The notes under the pieces are model-generated. The model was not told the DNA's origin, ran no database searches, and saw only the letters and a program-made list of their open reading frames with translations. The translations under genes were made by a program, and so were the position numbers. A DNA stretch of 40,363 bases, taken from an uncultured Holophagaceae bacterium. Lineage in GTDB: Bacteria; Acidobacteriota; Holophagae; Holophagales; Holophagaceae. Shown piece by piece: positions 10,361 to 19,852 of the stretch. How positions within the stretch are numbered: the stretch's first letter is position 1; each line of letters opens with the position of its first letter. The DNA is taken from positions 1 to 40,363 of the forward strand of contig CAIMBM010000082.1 of NCBI GenBank assembly GCA_903839205.1, given 5' to 3'.

Positions 10361-11452
10361 TCAGGGCGCCGTTGCCTCCGCCAGGGCCAGGCAGGCCGTG
10401 AGACCTGGGGACTCGATGCCGAAGAGGTTCACGAGGCCAGGCAGGCCGTGGTCGGCCTCCCGCTGGATGAGGAAATCCGGCGCCGTCTCGCCGGGGCCGT
10501 GGAGCTTGGGTCGGATGCCCGCGTAGGCCGGCTGGAGTGCGCCGTCCGGCAGCCCCGGCCAGTATTTTCGGACCTCGGCGTAGAAACTGTCGGCCCGGCG
10601 GGGGTCCACGTCGTAGGACTCCTGGTCGATCCATTCCACGTCGGGACCGAAGCGGGCCTGGCCCCCCAGGTCCAGGGTCAGGTGCACACCCAGCGCCCCC
10701 TGGGCGGGGATGGGGTAGACCAGCCGCGAGAACGGGGCGTGGCCCGACAGGCTGTAGTAGTTGCCCTTGGAGAGGTGCCGGGGCGGTACGCTGCCGGGGC
10801 GGATCCCCTCGAAGGCCGCGGCCACGGCCTGGGCCCCGAGACCCGCACAGTTGTAGACCCGCTCCGCCAGGAGGGCCATGGGCTCGCCTCCACCCACAGC
10901 GACCTCGAGGCCCGCCGGAGTGGAGCGTCCGCCGAGCACCGGGCTCTTCAGCACGACGGCGGCGCCAGCGCCCTCGGCGTCCATGCGCAGGGCCCGCATG
11001 AGCCCATGGCTGTCCACGATGCCCGTGCTGGGCGAGAGCAGGGCGGCCGTACAGCGGAGCCTGGGTTCCAGGTCCAGGGCCTCCGCCGCGCTCAGCCACT
11101 CGAGGTCGCCGACGCCGTTGGCCGCTGCCTTGGCCTGGAGCTCCCGCAGGGCCGCCACCTGCTCCGCATCCGTGGCCACAATGAGCTTTCCGCAGCGGCG
11201 GTGATCGACCTGCCTCGCGGCGCAGTAGGCGTAGAGGGCCCGGTTGCCCGCCACGCAGAGCCGGGCCTTCAGGGATCCTGCGGGGTAGTAGATCCCCGCA
11301 TGGATGACCTCGCTGTTGCGGGAGCTGATGCCCGTGCCGATGCGGTCCTCGGCCTCGAGCACCACCACCTCGCGTCCCTGCAGGGCCAGGTGGCGCGCGA
11401 GGGCAAACCCCACCACACCCGCACCGATGACGACACAGTCCACGCGTTCCAT
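10361..11452 (-). CDS. lhgO: FAD-dependent oxidoreductase, L-2-hydroxyglutarate oxidase-like
   Basis: A 363-residue DAO-family flavoenzyme. The N-terminal dinucleotide fold [16 protein letters not shown] (about 7-22) binds FAD, followed by [21 protein letters not shown], which closely matches the LhgO/L2HGDH group, and later by [10 protein letters not shown] and FGIESPGLT near the C-terminus. LhgO oxidises L-2-hydroxyglutarate to 2-oxoglutarate and passes electrons to the respiratory chain. Related amino-acid or glycerol-3-phosphate oxidases cannot be fully excluded. Start: ATG at 11452, where the FAD fold begins. It is divergent from mutS across 82 bp, which must hold both promoters. Confidence 0.82.
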
Positions 11453-11534
11453 GGCTCCATCTTCGCGGCAACCTTGGCCATGTGGGAAGATCATGGTTTC
11501 CCGACGATCCGTTTCACTCACGCCACGAGCCCCC

Positions 11535-14054
11535 ATGTCCACACCCATGCTGCAGCAGATCGCCGGCCTCAAGCGCGAGGCGGGGGAGGCGGTGCTGCTC
11601 ACGCGCATGGGTGACTTCTACGAGATCCTGGGCGAAGACGCCGTGCGGGCCGCCCCAGTGCTGGAGATCGCGCTCACGATGAGGGGCAAGGGCACCGAGG
11701 CGGAGACCCCCATGTGCGGGGTGCCCCACTTCGCCCTGGAGTCCTACCTGCCGAAGCTGCTGGCGGCGGGGTTCTCGGCGGCCATCGCCGAACCCACGGC
11801 CAAGGCCGAGGAGGTGAAGGGGCTGCTGCCCCGGGCCATCAAGCGCATCATCACGCCGGGCACCTGGCTGGACGACGACGCCCGGTGGCTCTGCGCCCTG
11901 CATCGGACGGAGCGTGCCTGGGGTCTCGCCCTGCTGCAGCTGGCCTCGGGCGCCCTGCGGGTGCTGCCAGGCGAAGGGGAGGAGGCCCTGCGGGCCACCC
12001 TGGAGCGCCTCGGCCCCCAGGAGCTGATCCTGGCCGAGGGCGCTGCGGACCTCGCAGAGCTCGTGGCGGCGCGCACGCGGCTGCCCGCCTGGCGCTTCGA
12101 GGCGTCCCGGGCCAAGCAGCAGGTGCTCGCCTTCTTCGGCTGGCAGCACCTCGAAGGCGTGGGACTGGACCCCTTTCCGGCCGCCCTCGGCGCCCTGGCG
12201 GCCCTGCTCGATCACGTGGAGGCCACGCAGAAGGGCCGTCCCGCCCACCTCCAGGGCGTGTCGCTGGAACTGGGCGCGGCGGGCCCCCTCCTGGATGCCA
12301 CCAGCGCCCGTCACCTCGAAGTCTTCACCAATGGTCTGGATGGGGGCCGGGCGGGATCGCTGTTCGCGCTCCTGGACCAGTGCCGGACGCGCATGGGGTC
12401 CCGCCTGCTGAAGGGCTGGCTGGAGCAGCCCCTCCGGGACCGTCCCCAGCTGGAGCGCCGATGGTCCCAGGTGGCCTGGCTCACGGAGGACCGCCGCCGC
12501 GGGCCCATCCAGACCCTGCTGTCCCAGGTTCCCGACTTGGATCGCCTGCTGGGGCGCGTGGCCCTTGGCTTGGCTTCGCCACCGGAGCTGGCCCAGCTGC
12601 GGGAGGGACTGGCCGTGCTCCAGAAGCTGCCGGCCCGCCTCCAGGACGAGGGCTGGGCCTCCGAGGTCGCTGAATTGGAACTCTGGCCGGTCGACACGCC
12701 GCTCTGCACCGCTCTGCTCGGTGAGCTCAGGCGCTGTCTTGCGGAAGCACCGCCCCTGGACCTGGAGAAGGGCGGCGTCATCCGGGAAGGCGTGGATCCG
12801 GAGCTGGACGCCGTGCGCCGCCTGGCCCGGGACGCCAAGCAGGTGATGCTCGAACTGGAGGAGGAGGAGCGGCGCGCCAGCGGCATCCAGAGCCTGAAGA
12901 TCAAGTACAACCGGGTCTTCGGCTACTACTTCGAGATCACGAAATCGAACCTCGCCTCGGTCCCTGCCCATTTTCTGAGAAAGCAGACACTGGCCAACGC
13001 CGAGCGCTTCACCACCGAGAAGCTGGTGGCCTTCGAGCAGCGCCTGCTGAGCGCCGAGAGCGACCAGGCCCGGCTGGAGGCCATGCAGTTCCAGCGCCTG
13101 CTGGCCCTGGTGCTGGAGCACCGGGCGGGCCTCACGGCCCTGGCCCGGGCCGTGGCCGCCCTGGACGTGCTGGCGGCCCTGGCGGAGCGGGCGCGGCTCT
13201 CGGGCTGGTCGCGACCCGAGCTGGGCGAGGACCGCGAGCTGGTGCTGGCGGCGGCCCGCCATCCCATGCTGGAGGCCCGCCTGGGCCGGGAGTGCATCCC
13301 CAACGACCTGCTGTTCTCCGCCGCCCAGCCCATGGCCGTGGTGACGGGTCCCAACATGGGCGGCAAGTCCACCTTCCTGCGCACGGCGGCCCTGCTGGTG
13401 GTGCTGGCCCAGACCGGTTCCTTCGTGCCGGCGGAGCTCATGCGCTTCGGGCTGGTGGACCGCATCTTCACGCGCATCGGCGCCTCGGACCAGCTGGCCA
13501 AGGGGCAGTCCACCTTCATGGTGGAGATGACGGAGACGGCCCGGATCCTCAACCAGGCCACTTCGGCGAGCCTGGTGATCCTGGACGAGATCGGCCGCGG
13601 CACCTCCACCCGGGACGGGCTGGCCCTGGCGGAAGCCATCGCCCTGTTCCTCCGCGACCTCAAGGGCGGCGCGCCCCGGACGCTGTTCGCCACCCACTAC
13701 TTCGAGATGACCAAGCTGGCGGACGACTCGCGGATCCAGAACCTCCACGTGGAAGTGCAGGAGTGGGAGGAGCAGCTGCACTTCCTCCACCGCGTGGCGC
13801 CGGGCCCGGCGGACCGCAGCTACGGCATCCAGGTGGCCCGCCTGGCAGGCCTGCCGAAATCCGTCATCCAGAAAGCCCAGCGCCTGCTGGCCCAGGCGCC
13901 GGAGGCGCCGCCGCGAGCGCCCATGCCCTCCCAGCCAGCCTTGCCCCTGTTCGAGATTGAGCCGGACAGCCTCCGCGCCGAACTGGAGGCCCTGGACCTG
14001 AACCGGATGACACCCCTGGAAGCATTGAACTGGATTTCAGCGAGGCGCCGATGA
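11535..14054 (+). CDS. mutS: DNA mismatch repair protein MutS
   Basis: An 839-residue mismatch-recognition ATPase. Domain I opens with TPMLQQ and the mismatch-wedging Phe-x-Glu of MGDFYE (F28, E30), then connector, lever and clamp domains ([14 protein letters not shown]). The ABC-type ATPase domain carries Walker [11 protein letters not shown] (~603-612), Walker [16 protein letters not shown] and FATHYFEMT. The C-terminus ends with a short [16 protein letters not shown] motif, usual for the dimer/tetramer tail. The start is uncertain: ATG 11535 fits the family but has no SD, while the in-frame ATG at 11493 has GGGAAG just before it and would add 14 residues. The stop overlaps the next start (ATGA). 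Confidence 0.96.
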
Positions 14055-14527
14055 GCGTACCCAGCCACCCGATCCGCCGCAAGGACCGCGCCCTGAGCGG
14101 GGACGAGGCCCTGCTGCTCCTCCAGGAGGCTGAATGGGGCGTGCTCGCCACCGTGGACGAGGCGGGCTGGCCCTACGCCGTGCCCGTGAACCACGCGGTG
14201 GTGGGGGGGGACCTGATCATCCACAGCGCCACCGTGGGCCACAAGCTGGCCAATCTGGCCTTCAACCCGAGGGTCTCCTACTGCGCCGTCACCCAGGCCG
14301 AGACCCTGCCCCTGGAACTCTCCACCCGCTATGCCAGCGTCATCGTCTTCGGCCGAGCGGACCTGCTCACGGACGAGGGGGAGAAGCGGGAGGCCCTCCG
14401 GGCCCTGGGCCTGCGCTTCGCGGCGGCCCACCCGGACCTGGTGGACCGGGAGATCGACAAGGACCTCTTCCGCACGGCGGTGCTGCGCATCCACATCGAG
14501 CGGGCCACCGGGAAGGCGCGCCGCTGA
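14051..14527 (+). CDS. Pyridoxamine 5'-phosphate oxidase-like flavoprotein, Nim family
   Basis: A 158-residue split-barrel flavin-binding protein. The sequence GVLATVDEAGWPYAVPVNHAV followed by IIHSATVGHKLANLAFNPRVSYCAV is the signature of the Nim/PNPOx-like group, several members of which reduce 5-nitroimidazole drugs. The natural substrate is unknown, and most such proteins are just annotated as flavin-binding. Its ATG overlaps the mutS stop by four bases (ATGA), so the two are almost surely co-transcribed and translationally coupled. I see no functional link to mismatch repair. It converges with the hemerythrin-HAD gene, 28 bp away. Confidence 0.85.
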   Translation: MSVPSHPIRRKDRALSGDEALLLLQEAEWGVLATVDEAGWPYAVPVNHAVVGGDLIIHSATVGHKLANLAFNPRVSYCAVTQAETLPLELSTRYASVIVFGRADLLTDEGEKREALRALGLRFAAAHPDLVDREIDKDLFRTAVLRIHIERATGKARR

Positions 14528-14555: not shown

Positions 14556-15569
14556 TCAGAGGGCCACCTTGTGCCGCCTCAGCTCCGTCAGGAGGGCCAC
14601 GGGCGTGGTGTAGGTGATGCCGTGCAGGAGGTGGTCCGTGGCCGCCTGGGCGAAGGCCGGCAGGTCGTCCACGTAGAGGCATTCCTCGGCCAGGAGGTCC
14701 AGCTTGGAAAGGGCATCCTCGAAGAGCCGGGGGTCGGGCTTGCTGGCGCCCACCTCGAAGGAGAGCGTGACGCTGTCGAAGAGCGGGAAGACCTCCGTGG
14801 TCCGGATGGCCCTTTCGAAGTGCCAGGGGCTGGTGTTCGAAAGCAGGCCCAGCTTGTAGCCGGGTTTCAATTTCCGGATCAGGTCGAAGGTGGCGTGGAT
14901 GGGCGTGAAGATGTCCGTGTAGACGCGGATGAAGTCGGGCTCCGGGAAGTCCGTGCCGCAGAGCCTCGACACTTCCCGGTGAAAGGCCCGGGAGTCGATG
15001 CGCCCGGCCTCGTAGTCCTGGGTGAGGGTGCTTTGCCCATAGAGGAGCTCCCCCAGGTCCCCGGCGGGTTTGCCGCAGAGGGAAGACAGCCCTTCCAGGA
15101 ACCGGAGGTTGTCGAATGTGCAGAGGACATTCCCGAAGTCGAAGATGACGGCCCTGGGGGTGGCGTGCTGTCGGAACTGCTTCATGAAGGGGACGTAGGC
15201 CATGTCGGAGCGAAGGATATGACCGAGGAACCAGTGCTGGAGGAAGCCCCGGGTCTCCGCCAGCAGGCGGGGGTCCGAGGGATCGTAGGCCTGGTTGAAG
15301 TCCAGGAGCTGCTGCACGAAGCTCGCATGCTCGGACTCCTGGGGCCCGAGGTCCGGGTAGCCGGCGGCCCTCAGGTAGCGCTCCTCGTTGCGGAAGTGGA
15401 GGAGGGCGTAGCTGCAGAGGCGCTGGAAGATGCTTGAGATCTGTTCGGGCGCGCCACCGCCGTCCATGAGGTCGATGAGCTCATTGAGGAGGTCCAGCAG
15501 CACCCGGTGCTGGGCATCGATGTCCTTGTAGCCGATGCGGTACTGGTCCTTCCACGCGATGTGGGCCAT
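14556..15569 (-). CDS. Hemerythrin-HAD fusion, phosphatase motifs intact
   Basis: A 337-residue fusion. Residues 1-130 are a bacteriohemerythrin fold (WKDQYRIGYKDIDAQH), with iron ligands H21, H58, E62, H81, H117 and D122. The seventh ligand, normally the first His of HxxxH, is Gln (Q77). Residues 138-337 are a HAD subfamily IA phosphatase of the YihX type: motif I VIFDFGNVL (nucleophile D144), motif II LLSNT (S244), motif III SKPDP (K277) and motif IV VDD (D301, D302), all present. ATG 15569 was chosen because MAHIAWKD matches the start of the upstream paralogue and GGGGAGGG precedes it; an in-frame codon at 15626 adds unrelated residues. I infer oxygen- or redox-dependent phosphatase output; the substrate is unknown. 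Confidence 0.9.
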   Translation of the reverse strand: MAHIAWKDQYRIGYKDIDAQHRVLLDLLNELIDLMDGGGAPEQISSIFQRLCSYALLHFRNEERYLRAAGYPDLGPQESEHASFVQQLLDFNQAYDPSDPRLLAETRGFLQHWFLGHILRSDMAYVPFMKQFRQHATPRAVIFDFGNVLCTFDNLRFLEGLSSLCGKPAGDLGELLYGQSTLTQDYEAGRIDSRAFHREVSRLCGTDFPEPDFIRVYTDIFTPIHATFDLIRKLKPGYKLGLLSNTSPWHFERAIRTTEVFPLFDSVTLSFEVGASKPDPRLFEDALSKLDLLAEECLYVDDLPAFAQAATDHLLHGITYTTPVALLTELRRHKVAL

Positions 15570-15650
15570 GCACCCTCCCCGGGACCCTTCCTGGAGCTTA
15601 TCGGAGGATCCTGCGGGAAAGCCCATTCCTGTGGGCCTCCGACCGGATCC

Positions 15651-15675
15651 AAAGGCTGCGTTCGATGCGGCCTTT
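15651..15675 (-). terminator. Possible terminator between the two hemerythrin-HAD genes
   Basis: An inverted repeat, AAAGGCTGC / GCGGCCTTT with a 7-base loop, about 38 nt past the stop of the upstream paralogue. On the minus strand it holds one A-C mismatch and ends in TTT. It could partly separate transcription of the two genes; support is modest. Confidence 0.35.
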
Positions 15676-15712
15676 CAGCCTACCTTCGAAGGGTCCCCGG
15701 AACAGGCTTGGC

Positions 15713-16726
15713 TCAGAACGGGATGCCCATGCGCCGAAGCTCGGCCATGAGCATCACCGGATTCGTGTAGTGGAGAGTCTGGAAATGGGCGGCCTGCGCC
15801 GCGTCCAGGCAGGCCGGGTCCCGGTGGATGAGCATGCATGCCTCGGGGCTCAGCCCCAGCCTGGAGGCCGCCTCGAGAAAGAGGGCCTTGTCCGGAAGCC
15901 TGGCCCCGGCCTCGAAGGAGAACACTTCGGCACTGAAGCGGCCCTCGCTTCCCAGGCGGCCCAACCCCAGGGGTCGCATCCAGGGCGGGGCATCCCCCAC
16001 CAGGCCCACGGGCTGGTGGGCCTTCAGCCGACCCGCCAGCTGCAGCATGGGCGGCACCGGGTGCAGGGCCTCCGCGTAGGACCGGGCCAGGTCCTCCTGG
16101 GGGATGGGGGTTCCGGCCCAGGCCGTCAGCCCTGAATGGAATGGCTCGAGGTCCAGTTGCCCCGACTCCAGGGCCCTCAGAAGCCCCGGGTCCTCGAACA
16201 GGGCGCGCCGGGCCTCCCCTTCCGTTCTGCCGCTCCTTGCTGCCACCAGACTGAGCAGCGGGCCGGCGTCCCAGGTGCACACCACCCCGTCCAGGCCGAG
16301 CAGGATGCCATCGATGGGGGCCGTGGGCAGGGCCCGCCGGAGAAAGGGGGCGTAGTCCTGGTCCGATTTGATGATGTGGTCCAGGTACCAGTCTTTGACA
16401 AAGGCCAGGGTCTCTTCCAGCACGAGGGGATCGTCGGGATCGAAGTCCCGGCCCAATTCGAGCACACGCTGCACGAAGGCCGCGTGCTCCTGGCGGTGCT
16501 GGGCCAGCTTCGGGTAGTCCGCCGCCTGCATGTAGCGCTCTTCGCTGCTGAAGTGGGTCTGCGCATAGTCGCAGAGGGACCGGAAGATCTGCGTGACCTG
16601 CTCGGGCTTCTGGAGGCCATCCTTCAGGTCCGCCAGCTCATTGAGAAGGTCCAGCAGGCCATGATGCTGCGCGTCGATTTCCCTGAAGTTGATGTTGTAG
16701 CGATCCTTCCACTGGATGTGGACCAT
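15713..16726 (-). CDS. Hemerythrin fused to a degenerate (pseudo) HAD domain
   Basis: A 337-residue paralogue of the downstream gene, aligning end to end without a gap. The hemerythrin half (1-130) has all seven di-iron ligands: H21, H58, E62, H77, H81, H117 and D122. The HAD half keeps the fold pattern but has lost every catalytic motif: nucleophile D144 is Gly (ILLGLDGVV), S244 of motif II is Gly (GLVGD), K277 of motif III is Leu (ARLPDK), and the motif IV pair D301/D302 is His-Arg (LIHRDP). It should bind oxygen at a di-iron site but cannot act as a standard HAD phosphatase. A role as a regulatory partner of the downstream phosphatase is inference. It is divergent from a small membrane-protein gene. 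Confidence 0.9.
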   Translation of the reverse strand: MVHIQWKDRYNINFREIDAQHHGLLDLLNELADLKDGLQKPEQVTQIFRSLCDYAQTHFSSEERYMQAADYPKLAQHRQEHAAFVQRVLELGRDFDPDDPLVLEETLAFVKDWYLDHIIKSDQDYAPFLRRALPTAPIDGILLGLDGVVCTWDAGPLLSLVAARSGRTEGEARRALFEDPGLLRALESGQLDLEPFHSGLTAWAGTPIPQEDLARSYAEALHPVPPMLQLAGRLKAHQPVGLVGDAPPWMRPLGLGRLGSEGRFSAEVFSFEAGARLPDKALFLEAASRLGLSPEACMLIHRDPACLDAAQAAHFQTLHYTNPVMLMAELRRMGIPF

Positions 16727-16808: not shown

Positions 16809-17114
16809 ATGCCTTCTCCCCTCAGCAAGACTCGCATCCGTCTGGCCTGGGCCATCGCGCTGGCCGTGGACGCACTCCAGATCCCGGCGACCTTCGCCGG
16901 GCCCCCGGGCTGGTTCCTGGATGCGGGCCTCGACGTGGTCACCATGCTCGTCATGTGGATGCTGCTGGGCTTCCACTGGGCCTTTCTGCCCTCCTTCCTG
17001 ACCAAGTGGATTCCCTACCTCGACATCGCGCCCCTCTGGACCCTGGCGGTGGCCCTGGCCACCCGGGGGCGTGGTGGACTGGATCCGCCCTCGGCTCCGA
17101 AGGCCGTGAACTGA
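16809..17114 (+). CDS. Small membrane protein, unknown function
   Basis: A 101-residue protein I do not recognise. It has a short basic N-terminus (PSPLSKTRIR) and at least two, perhaps three, hydrophobic stretches: about 11-28, 38-60 (LDVVTMLVMWMLLGFHWAF) and 70-85, with a glycine-rich polar tail. It probably sits in the inner membrane. No SD stands before the ATG; instead a TAGACT box ends six bases upstream. It is divergent from the hemerythrin pair and convergent with the ABC-transporter operon, with only 9 bp between stops. Confidence 0.75.
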   Translation: MPSPLSKTRIRLAWAIALAVDALQIPATFAGPPGWFLDAGLDVVTMLVMWMLLGFHWAFLPSFLTKWIPYLDIAPLWTLAVALATRGRGGLDPPSAPKAVN

Positions 17115-17123
17115 ACTCAGGGG

Positions 17124-17924
17124 CTAGTCCCCCGTCGCGCCCCGGAATTCTTCCAGGTTGTGGCGGCTCTGCTCCTCCATGAGCCATCCGGAGAGTTCCT
17201 TCTTCAGGGCGTTGAAGGCGGGGCCGGCCACGTCCCGGGGGCGGGGCAGGTCGACGGCCAGTTCGCGCTTGAGGGTACCCGGCCGGTAGGTCATGACCAC
17301 GATGCGGTCCGCCAGGTAGAGGGCCTCCTCGATGCTGTGGGTGACGAAGAGAACGGTTTTCCTCAGCTCCGTCCACAGCCGCAGCAGTTCGTCCTGGAGG
17401 TTGCGGCGGGTGAGGGCGTCCAGGGCGCCGAAGGGCTCGTCCATGAGCAGGATGGGCGAGTCGATGGCCAGCACTCGGGCGATGGCCACCCGCTGGCGCA
17501 TGCCGCCGCTCAGGTCCTTGGGGTAGCGCTTCCTGAATTCGTCGAGATGGAGCATGGCGAGCAGGCCATCCACCTTCGAGCGGATGGCGGGCCTGGGCAC
17601 CTTCTTGATCTGGAGGCCGAAGGCGACGTTCTGCTCCACGGTCATCCAGGGGAAGAGCGCGTATTCCTGGAACACCATGCCCCGGTCCGGGCCGGGCTCC
17701 GTGATGATCGATCCATCCACGGTGATGGTGCCAGAGGTGGGCAGACTGAACCCCGCCACGGCGTTCAGCAGGGTGGACTTGCCGCAGCCCGAGGGCCCCA
17801 GCAGGCAGACGAACTCGCCCCGGGCCAGCTCCAGGTCGATGCCACTGAGGGCGCAGACCTCCTGGCCGCCGCTCTGGAAGACCTTGGACAGGCCACGGAT
17901 GGAGATGTGCGCGGACTCGCTCAT
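17124..17924 (-). CDS. ABC transporter ATPase, SsuB/TauB/NrtD type
   Basis: A 266-residue ATPase powering an importer of the nitrate/sulfonate/taurine family. Walker A GPSGCGKST, Q-loop VFQEYALFPW, signature LSGGMRQRVAIAR, Walker B ILLMDEPFGALD and H-loop VTHSIEEAL are all intact. The C-terminal stretch (VMTYRPGTLKRELAVDLPRPRD) is also typical of this subgroup. The ATG at 17924 overlaps the permease stop (ATGA) and starts with MSESAHISIRG; earlier in-frame codons lie inside the permease gene. It is the third gene of a binding protein-permease-ATPase operon. The substrate is not evident from the ATPase. Confidence 0.93.
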   Translation of the reverse strand: MSESAHISIRGLSKVFQSGGQEVCALSGIDLELARGEFVCLLGPSGCGKSTLLNAVAGFSLPTSGTITVDGSIITEPGPDRGMVFQEYALFPWMTVEQNVAFGLQIKKVPRPAIRSKVDGLLAMLHLDEFRKRYPKDLSGGMRQRVAIARVLAIDSPILLMDEPFGALDALTRRNLQDELLRLWTELRKTVLFVTHSIEEALYLADRIVVMTYRPGTLKRELAVDLPRPRDVAGPAFNALKKELSGWLMEEQSRHNLEEFRGATGD

Positions 17925-18739
17925 CCCTGCTCCAGGCCGCGGTGCCACTTCAGCAGGTACGAACTGAGGCGGCTCATGACGGTGTCGATGCCCAGGCCCA
18001 GCAGGCCGATGGTGAACATGCCCGCGATGATCTTGTCAGACCAGAGGTACTCGCGGGCCTCGAGGATGCGGTAGCCCAGGCCGTTGTTCACGGCGATCAT
18101 CTCCGAGACGATCACCACGATGAAGGCTGTGCCCATGCCGATGCGTGCCCCGGTGAAGATGTAGGGCGTGGCCGCCGGCAGGATGATGCGGGTGAACTGG
18201 GTCCATCGGGAGGCGCCCAGGTTCCGGCCCACGCGGAGGTAGATGCTGTCCACGGTCTGCACCCCGGTCACGGTGTTCATCAGGACCGGGAAGAAGGCGC
18301 CGATGGTGATGAGGAAGATCGCGGGCGGGTTGCCCAGGCCGAACCAGAGGATGGACAAAGGAATGAAGGCGATGGGCGGGATGGGCCGCAGCACCTGGAT
18401 GAGCGGGTTGAAGAGGCCATAGGCCAGGCGGCTGTAGCCCATGGCGAGGCCCAGGGGCAGGGCCAGCCCGGCGCCGAGGAGGAAACCCGTCAAGACCCGG
18501 TAGAGGCTGCCGGCGGCATCCTGGATCAGCTCACCGGAGAAGCACCACCGCAGGTAGGATCCCTGGGTGGGATCAAAGGCCTCCAGGGGCCGCAGGTAGG
18601 CCCACCACCTGACCAGCACCTGCGTGGGCGAGGGCAGGATGGTGGCGTTCACCCAGCCCCGGGACGCAAGCAGCTGCCAGAGGGCCAGCACCGCCAGCGG
18701 GACCAGGAGGCCGGAGGCGGCGTGCCGGTAGCGCTTCAT
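17921..18739 (-). CDS. ABC transporter permease, SsuC/TauC type
   Basis: A 272-residue inner-membrane permease with about six membrane spans. The conserved ATPase-docking loop (EAA-type) appears as VGRNLGASRWTQFTRIILPAA (residues ~169-189), and PIPPIAFIPLSILWFGLG is typical of BPD_transp_1 permeases of the sulfonate/nitrate/thiamine-precursor group. The region before the first core span (residues ~45-80, RPLEAFDPTQGSYLRWCFSGE) is somewhat longer than in SsuC. It starts 7 bp after the binding-protein stop and overlaps the ATPase start by four bases, so all three genes are one transcript. Confidence 0.92.
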   Translation of the reverse strand: MKRYRHAASGLLVPLAVLALWQLLASRGWVNATILPSPTQVLVRWWAYLRPLEAFDPTQGSYLRWCFSGELIQDAAGSLYRVLTGFLLGAGLALPLGLAMGYSRLAYGLFNPLIQVLRPIPPIAFIPLSILWFGLGNPPAIFLITIGAFFPVLMNTVTGVQTVDSIYLRVGRNLGASRWTQFTRIILPAATPYIFTGARIGMGTAFIVVIVSEMIAVNNGLGYRILEAREYLWSDKIIAGMFTIGLLGLGIDTVMSRLSSYLLKWHRGLEQG

Positions 18740-18746
18740 CCCCGGC

Positions 18747-19709
18747 TCACTTCACCTTCAGCTGCCGCTTGGCCTCGGTGAGGAGGTCCAGCTTCACCCA
18801 GTCGGCGGCCTTCGGGGGATGGGCCATCCGGCCCACGCCGTACTTCAGCATGAGGTCCGTGGTGACCTGCACGTGGGCCAGGGTGATGTCGTAGCAGAAG
18901 GGCGAATTGCCGATGGCGTCCTGGTAGTCCTCGGCGCTGATCTGGTTCTTGAACATCACCTCGCGCACGTAATTCTCCGCCACCTTCGGCTCGTCGATGA
19001 ACTTCCGGGTGGCCTCCACGAAGCAGAGCAGGAAGCGCTGGGCCACGTCCCGGCGCTCCCGGTAGAGCTTCTCGGTGATGACCAGGGCCCGGATGGGCTC
19101 GCCGATGGGCGTGTCGTAGGGCTTCAGCAGCTCCACGCCGAACCTCCGGTGGAGGGCCTGGGAACTGTAGGGCTCGCTCTGGCACATGGCGTCTATGTTC
19201 TTCGCCAGGAGGGCCTGGTTCAGGTCCGCGAAGGGCAGGTAGAGCACCAGCACGTCCTTGCCGGGCCGGTCGGACCAGGAGAGCCCGGCCTTGGCCAGCT
19301 CCGCTAGCAGCAGCACCTCCTGGGCTCCACCCCGGGCCACGCCGACCTTCTTCCCCCGGAGGTCCTGGAGCGACCTGATGCCGGAGCCCGAGCCCACCAC
19401 CAGGCGGGCCCCGCCCCGGGCGAAGCCCGCCACCACGTAGATGGGCACCCCGGCGGCCCGGCCCGCGATGGCCGCGTCCAGGGCCGCGGCGCTGGCGTCG
19501 ATCTCCCCGGCCACGATGGCCGGGTTGATGTCGATGCCTTTGGGGAACACCCGCTCCTCGATCCTCAGCCGGTACTTCGGGGCCAGCTCCTTCATGTAGG
19601 AGACGGCGCCGTAGTGGGCGAACTTGAGGTTGCCCAGGCGCACCAGGTCCTGGGCCCACAGGGACGCGGCCGAAATCACGATCAACAACAGCAGAGCCTT
19701 CAGGCGCAC
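18747..19709 (-). CDS. ABC transporter substrate-binding protein, SsuA/TauA/NMT1-like
   Basis: A 320-residue periplasmic binding protein. A signal peptide (VRLKALLLLIVISAASLWAQ, cut after SLWA) precedes a two-lobe NMT1/SsuA-like fold: LRGKKVGVARGGAQE (~105-120), DAMCQSEPYSSQAL and FVEATRKFIDEPKVAENY. Family ligands include alkanesulfonates, taurine, nitrate and pyrimidine precursors; none can be assigned here. I chose the GTG at 19709 because CGGAG precedes it with 7-base spacing and the signal peptide starts there. The farther in-frame GTG at 19751 lies upstream of a likely -10 box. It is first in its operon. Confidence 0.9.
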   Translation of the reverse strand: MRLKALLLLIVISAASLWAQDLVRLGNLKFAHYGAVSYMKELAPKYRLRIEERVFPKGIDINPAIVAGEIDASAAALDAAIAGRAAGVPIYVVAGFARGGARLVVGSGSGIRSLQDLRGKKVGVARGGAQEVLLLAELAKAGLSWSDRPGKDVLVLYLPFADLNQALLAKNIDAMCQSEPYSSQALHRRFGVELLKPYDTPIGEPIRALVITEKLYRERRDVAQRFLLCFVEATRKFIDEPKVAENYVREVMFKNQISAEDYQDAIGNSPFCYDITLAHVQVTTDLMLKYGVGRMAHPPKAADWVKLDLLTEAKRQLKVK

Positions 19710-19735
19710 GGTTCGACTCCGGGTGGGGTGAGGCC

Positions 19736-19741
19736 ATTCTA
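19736..19741 (-). promoter_or_regulatory. -10 element of the ABC importer operon
   Basis: TAGAAT on the minus strand, 26 bp before the chosen GTG start. No good -35 is seen at 16-18 bp spacing (GGCTTC or nearby). On the other strand a similar TAGACT (19810-19815) stands before the acyltransferase gene, 37 bp from its ATG. Confidence 0.35.
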
Positions 19742-19852
19742 GGCGAATCACTCCTGGAGAAGCCCGACATAGTCCGACAGGAACCAGGATTTGTTCAGGC
19801 CGAAGGCCCTAGACTGGGTACTGTCCTGCTCGCCCTTTCTGACTGCCACCCC

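Follow-up and report, generated by a model that had tools for sequence, protein, structure and literature searches.

Two adjacent genes on a 40,363-nucleotide stretch of DNA from an uncultured Holophagaceae bacterium (the window) each encode a hemerythrin domain joined to a HAD-type domain. In one protein the HAD half has lost its catalytic residues, and in the other the iron site has lost a ligand. An earlier note on this DNA had read the two as a sensor/effector pair that decayed in opposite ways. This raises two questions: (i) whether the two proteins depend on one another, and (ii) what a hemerythrin attached to a non-catalytic HAD might do.

Two hemerythrin-HAD proteins in the window

The description of two hemerythrin-HAD open reading frames of 337 residues that align without a gap was borne out, with both frames on the minus strand. 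We refer to the upstream gene as class A and to the downstream gene as class B:

15713..16726 (-): class A gene, hemerythrin plus pseudo-HAD, 337 aa (P0002)
16322..16726 (-): class A hemerythrin domain, residues 1-135, with seven of seven di-iron ligands; matches NF033749 (bacteriohemerythrin)
15716..16321 (-): class A pseudo-HAD, residues 136-337; G144, G244, L277, and H301/R302 replace the catalytic D, S, K, and DD
14556..15569 (-): class B gene, hemerythrin plus HAD, 337 aa (P0001)
15165..15569 (-): class B hemerythrin domain, residues 1-135, with Q77 in place of the iron-ligand His; matches NF033749
15339..15341 (-): class B codon 77 (Gln)
14559..15164 (-): class B HAD domain, residues 136-337, with D144-F-G-N-V, S244-N-T, K277, and D301-D302; assigned by PF00702, alignment with 2i6x, and predicted structure

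An ungapped alignment of the two proteins returned every residue that had been named for either copy. Class A carries the full seven-residue di-iron set (H21, H58, E62, H77, H81, H117, and D122); in class B the set is incomplete, with Q77 and the remaining iron ligands intact. The catalytic HAD residues D144, S244, K277, D301, and D302 are all present in class B. The claim that class B has all four HAD motifs holds for the subfamily of the solved HAD 2i6x, with the correction that motif I is D-F-G-N-V, aligning with D-L-G-G-V of 2i6x, and not D-x-D. The two proteins are 51% identical over residues 1-135 (hemerythrin) and 29% identical over residues 136-337 (HAD). Homologues favor position 15569 as the class B start; an alternative ATG at 15626, in the same frame, would lengthen the protein by 19 residues.

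Profile searches gave the same division. Both proteins exceed the cut-offs for the Pfam hemerythrin family (25.3 bits; 59.9 for class A and 52.9 for class B) and for NF033749 (84 bits; 125.4 and 110.1, respectively). Against the Pfam HAD family PF00702 (cut-off 26.4 bits), class B scores above at 51.2 bits and class A below at 19.6 bits. Class B falls far under the cut-off of the YihX glucose-1-phosphatase equivalog, NF006991 (45.9 versus 295 bits). AlphaFold2 models had a pLDDT of 90.9 and a pTM of 0.85 for class A, and a pLDDT of 93.7 and a pTM of 0.84 for class B. In the class A model, the hemerythrin half matches DcrH-Hr (Z 19.7, 1.6 Å over 133 residues), and the best match of the pseudo-HAD is 3cnh (Z 21.6, 2.6 Å over 197 residues). 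Because the model is confident and matches solved HADs, we expect the class A pseudo-HAD to fold as a HAD domain.

Distribution and selection of the two classes

We searched for homologues in the genus (47 genomes), in the family (77 genomes), in 297 genomes sampled across the phylum, and by a pattern-based scan of GTDB contigs, which reaches close relatives only. The window genome (G000) is 85.5% complete, with 4.6% contamination. Full-length hemerythrin-HAD fusions were confined to Holophagaceae, both among the 297 phylum genomes and in the GTDB contig scan. In the genus and family searches, the full-length relatives fell into two groups, class A and class B; a third group of relatives consists of lone HADs that are 47-61% identical to the class B HAD. 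Class A was found in 8 genomes of two Holophagaceae genera (G000, G032, G063, G065, G013, G016, and G009, with G075 from the other genus), and class B in about 20 copies from 18 genomes.

The iron ligands read HHEHHHD in all eight class A proteins, and the catalytic HAD positions are all lost in all eight. Position 144 is G (A in G075), 244 is G, 277 is L (P in G009), 301 is H (G in G075), and 302 is R. Since the residue pattern of the window protein recurs in every class A orthologue, it is more than chance. The class B HAD set is kept in nearly all proteins, the exceptions being scattered and conservative: S244A (G004b) and D301N (G017). A residue table of all copies confirmed that the HAD and iron losses are class-specific, with no random mixes. 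The characterization of class A as a hemerythrin with a predicted non-catalytic HAD (full ligands, catalytic positions lost throughout), and of class B as a hemerythrin whose HAD appears catalytic and whose iron site is altered (HAD motifs present, Q77), was upheld. We note that the frame of the G017 class B gene (L100:7312-8325), which encodes Asn301, is intact except for a TAA at codon 14; this could reflect recent pseudogenisation, a sequencing error, or a start at a later codon.

Class A forms a single clade with support of 100/100 in the HAD tree, from which G010 was left out, and 100/100 in the full-length tree, which takes G010 in. The class A stem branch is long in the HAD tree (2.06 changes per site) and short in the hemerythrin tree (0.16), which indicates that the class A HAD half underwent one rapid change and settled afterwards. 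Judged from sequence, the hemerythrin-HAD family is composed of two old classes.

Codon models were applied to both halves of the two classes. For class A, omega was 0.082 in the hemerythrin and 0.115 in the HAD (0.076 in the closest trio, which is the safest figure, as the wider sets are probably close to synonymous saturation). For the Gln77 subclade of class B, omega was 0.072 in the hemerythrin and 0.060 in the HAD; the main His77 subclade gave 0.064 in the hemerythrin, and the lone HADs gave 0.092. Omega = 1 was rejected in every set tested (2dlnL 178-747; 178-395 for the class A HAD sets), and omega = 0.5 was likewise rejected in each (2dlnL 98-393). Selection is purifying throughout both classes, in both halves, and the Gln77 subclade is not relaxed; the idea of complementary losses by opposite decay was not supported. 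Pseudogenisation of either copy was ruled out by omega values far below 1.

We also weighed the reading that class A is a degenerating duplicate that retains its hemerythrin and is losing its HAD half as a passive remnant, and consider it unlikely. The long class A stem is restricted to the HAD half, and omega of the HAD is somewhat higher in class A than in class B (0.115 versus 0.060). Tree lengths for HAD and hemerythrin are 4.82 and 2.60 in class A versus 4.49 and 4.66 in class B; measured against the hemerythrin of the same protein, the HAD thus evolves faster in class A than in class B, so some relaxation remains. The G009 class A gene (L093:6950-8026) has an in-frame deletion of ~64 residues over the HAD cap region, with the C-terminal tail still conserved; either tolerance of such a loss by a non-catalytic module or erosion in progress would account for it. 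In G063 and G065, an adjacent related gene has wholly lost its HAD. However, a passive remnant is difficult to reconcile with the strength of purifying selection on the class A HAD itself, with the confidently predicted HAD fold, or with the finding of no in-frame stop among the eight class A genes. Moreover, 48 of 202 HAD positions are invariant across seven class A proteins, which span two genera, class-specific replacements among them (including G244, L277, R302, Q311, Q316, and T317).

The genomic slot and the question of a pair

Most family copies lie in one slot, bordered by mutS on one side and an NMT1/SsuA-type ABC transporter on the other. In the window, the surroundings of the two genes are as follows:

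11304..14054 (+): mutS-like long ORF, conserved slot border; named from its own sequence, without a family-library scan
14051..14527 (+): pyridoxamine-phosphate-oxidase-like (PPOX-like)/Nim-like flavoprotein, part of the conserved surroundings
15570..15712 (-): gap of 143 bases between the class A and class B genes
16809..17114 (+): small hydrophobic ORF, 101 aa, beside class A on the opposite strand
17124..19751 (-): NMT1/SsuA-type ABC transporter (ATPase, permease, and binding protein), conserved slot border

A consensus scan of the 143-base gap found no sigma-70-like promoter or terminator. Homologues of the 101-aa ORF adjoin the slot in many relatives, and this ORF had no match in Pfam and NCBIfam. 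We set aside function prediction from gene neighbors, as the genes for the ABC transporter and the PPOX-like and mutS-like proteins do not add up to a coherent pathway. Copies outside the slot have different neighbors (MarC, AhpC/TSA, and ferrochelatase). In a different genus, L103 (G073) and L115 (G074) share a syntenic place that is filled by either a hemerythrin-HAD gene or a lone HAD gene, adjoining MarC and AhpC/TSA family genes.

The contents of the slot vary: a lone HAD, class B, class A (G009, G013, and G016), class A with a hemerythrin-only gene (G063 and G065), or both classes. Where both are present, class A precedes class B in transcription order in G000 and follows it in G032. The hemerythrin tree places the hemerythrin-only genes with class B at modest support (82/83), and no active HAD relative was found in the two genomes that carry them. 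A search of the class A-only slots found no class B remnant. The mutS tree is too weakly resolved to speak for or against class A plus class B as the ancestral state of the slot. The slot of other species with a lone active HAD indicates that the hemerythrin is dispensable at this locus there, which counts against the reading that we favor below.

The proposal of an obligate sensor/effector pair was not supported by this comparison. Class A and class B occur together in two of the eight class A genomes, which does not exceed the chance expectation (Fisher p = 1.0 within both genus and family), and obligate co-occurrence was ruled out on these figures. Class A is alone in four genomes and beside a hemerythrin-only gene in two; five of these six genomes without class B are 93-99% complete. 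The model behind the proposal makes class A an oxygen sensor that controls the active HAD of class B in trans, the two forming a heterodimer or hetero-oligomer like known pseudoenzyme-enzyme pairs. Pseudophosphatases that work through heterodimerisation are known (PMC10211241), the two genes are adjacent and on the same strand in both the window and G032, and purifying selection acts on both classes alike. In addition, four of the eight class A loci have another hemerythrin-bearing relative adjacent to class A (full class B in two, hemerythrin-only in two). Nevertheless, regulation of class B by class A appears improbable, given that class B is missing from most class A genomes, that co-occurrence is at chance level, that gene order is reversed between the two shared loci, and that the neighbor of class A in G063 and G065 has no HAD at all, with no trace of class B in the class A-only slots. 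In the window genome, the two proteins may associate.

The expectation that both copies would be found together with the same complementary losses likewise failed. G032, the other genome with both classes, has two class B copies that both keep His77, and Gln77 is the mark of one class B subclade whose other members occur without class A; hence Gln77 is independent of class A. Across all class B copies, residue 77 is either His or Gln and nothing else, and on a residue-masked full-length tree its distribution takes two changes, one His-to-Gln gain and one reversion in G073. We take residue 77 to be a terminal ligand of one iron, by analogy with known hemerythrin structures. Gln77 is expected to alter the di-iron site of this class B subclade, with altered oxygen chemistry, rather than to abolish it. 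Gln at this ligand is also present in stand-alone hemerythrins of the same genus that are unrelated to class B. The pattern HHEQHHD occurs in 2 of 46 distinct other hemerythrins of relatives (the scorable part of 50 rows, leaving out three duplicates and one empty row), and a window-genome copy, L003, read by eye, is a third. Taken with the class B subclade, these stand-alone proteins point to a recurrent natural variant at the iron ligand.

A separate hemerythrin group, with a W-D-x-S-F-S-V-G start, has Gln at the ligand position of class B; it comprises L003 (G000 contig 94), L130 (G012), and L134 (G035). The window genome, of about 3.1 Mb, has 15 hemerythrin-like matches, many as neighboring pairs.

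A putative non-catalytic regulator and its relation to known systems

Both classes share the four-helix fold of bacteriohemerythrin and DcrH-type signaling domains (NF033749, PF01814), and class A also has the identical seven iron ligands. The arrangement of an N-terminal hemerythrin and an output domain resembles that of hemerythrin-GGDEF proteins, as described in the main text of PMC4919030, which gives MCP, GGDEF, and HAMP-MCP as the commonest hemerythrin partner domains. In contrast to DcrH-type signaling hemerythrins, the output here is a HAD or pseudo-HAD, and a class B subclade has Gln at one iron ligand. Class B resembles YihX-like HAD subclass IA phosphatases (PF00702; 2i6x, 3cnh, and 8pno) in fold, in motif I (D-x-G-[NG]-V), and in the S-N-T, K, and DD motifs; the hemerythrin fusion sets both classes apart from that group, and class A is without any of its catalytic positions. 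A pseudophosphatase is a phosphatase fold without catalytic residues that is kept by selection (PMC10211241), and class A, with its predicted HAD fold, fits this description. The cases described in the accessible portion of that source are mainly eukaryotic and Cys-based, whereas class A is a bacterial HAD with a predicted oxygen-binding domain. Literature searches that paired HAD with hemerythrin or with pseudophosphatase found nothing relevant.

The explanation we favor, with moderate confidence, is a lineage-restricted Holophagaceae hemerythrin-HAD family in which one class is now a conserved pseudophosphatase, likely an oxygen- or redox-responsive non-catalytic regulator. The class A HAD became a pseudo-HAD along one long stem branch and has stayed conserved from then on. 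Its di-iron hemerythrin would bind oxygen, making class A an oxygen- or redox-responsive protein, and the folded non-catalytic HAD may serve as a binding or oligomerisation module that provides the output. Class B would be a YihX-like HAD phosphatase, and its attached hemerythrin, as an oxygen/redox module, may modulate the phosphatase activity. We propose more tentatively a specific form of this idea, an oxygen-regulated pseudophosphatase of Holophagaceae in which the oxygen state of the hemerythrin might be relayed via the non-catalytic HAD to another protein, the sister class combining a catalytic HAD with a re-ligated Gln77 site. Least probable of all is that class A has turned into a new kind of enzyme or a ligand-binding protein whose former active site (His301-Arg302, Gly144) handles a non-phosphate-monoester compound; its class-specific invariant residues (those listed above and others) would suit such a role, but G075 has Gly in place of H301, G009 has Pro in place of L277, and position 144 holds no conserved nucleophile-like residue in place of Asp.

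With class A read as a conserved pseudophosphatase, one syntenic locus holds a natural series: a lone HAD, a hemerythrin with an active HAD, a hemerythrin with a pseudo-HAD, and a pseudo-HAD fusion with a lone hemerythrin. This series allows the addition of a sensor domain to an enzyme, and then the passage of that enzyme to a non-catalytic output, to be tested. The recurrent His-to-Gln change at a hemerythrin iron ligand similarly offers a natural test of the role of that ligand in oxygen binding.
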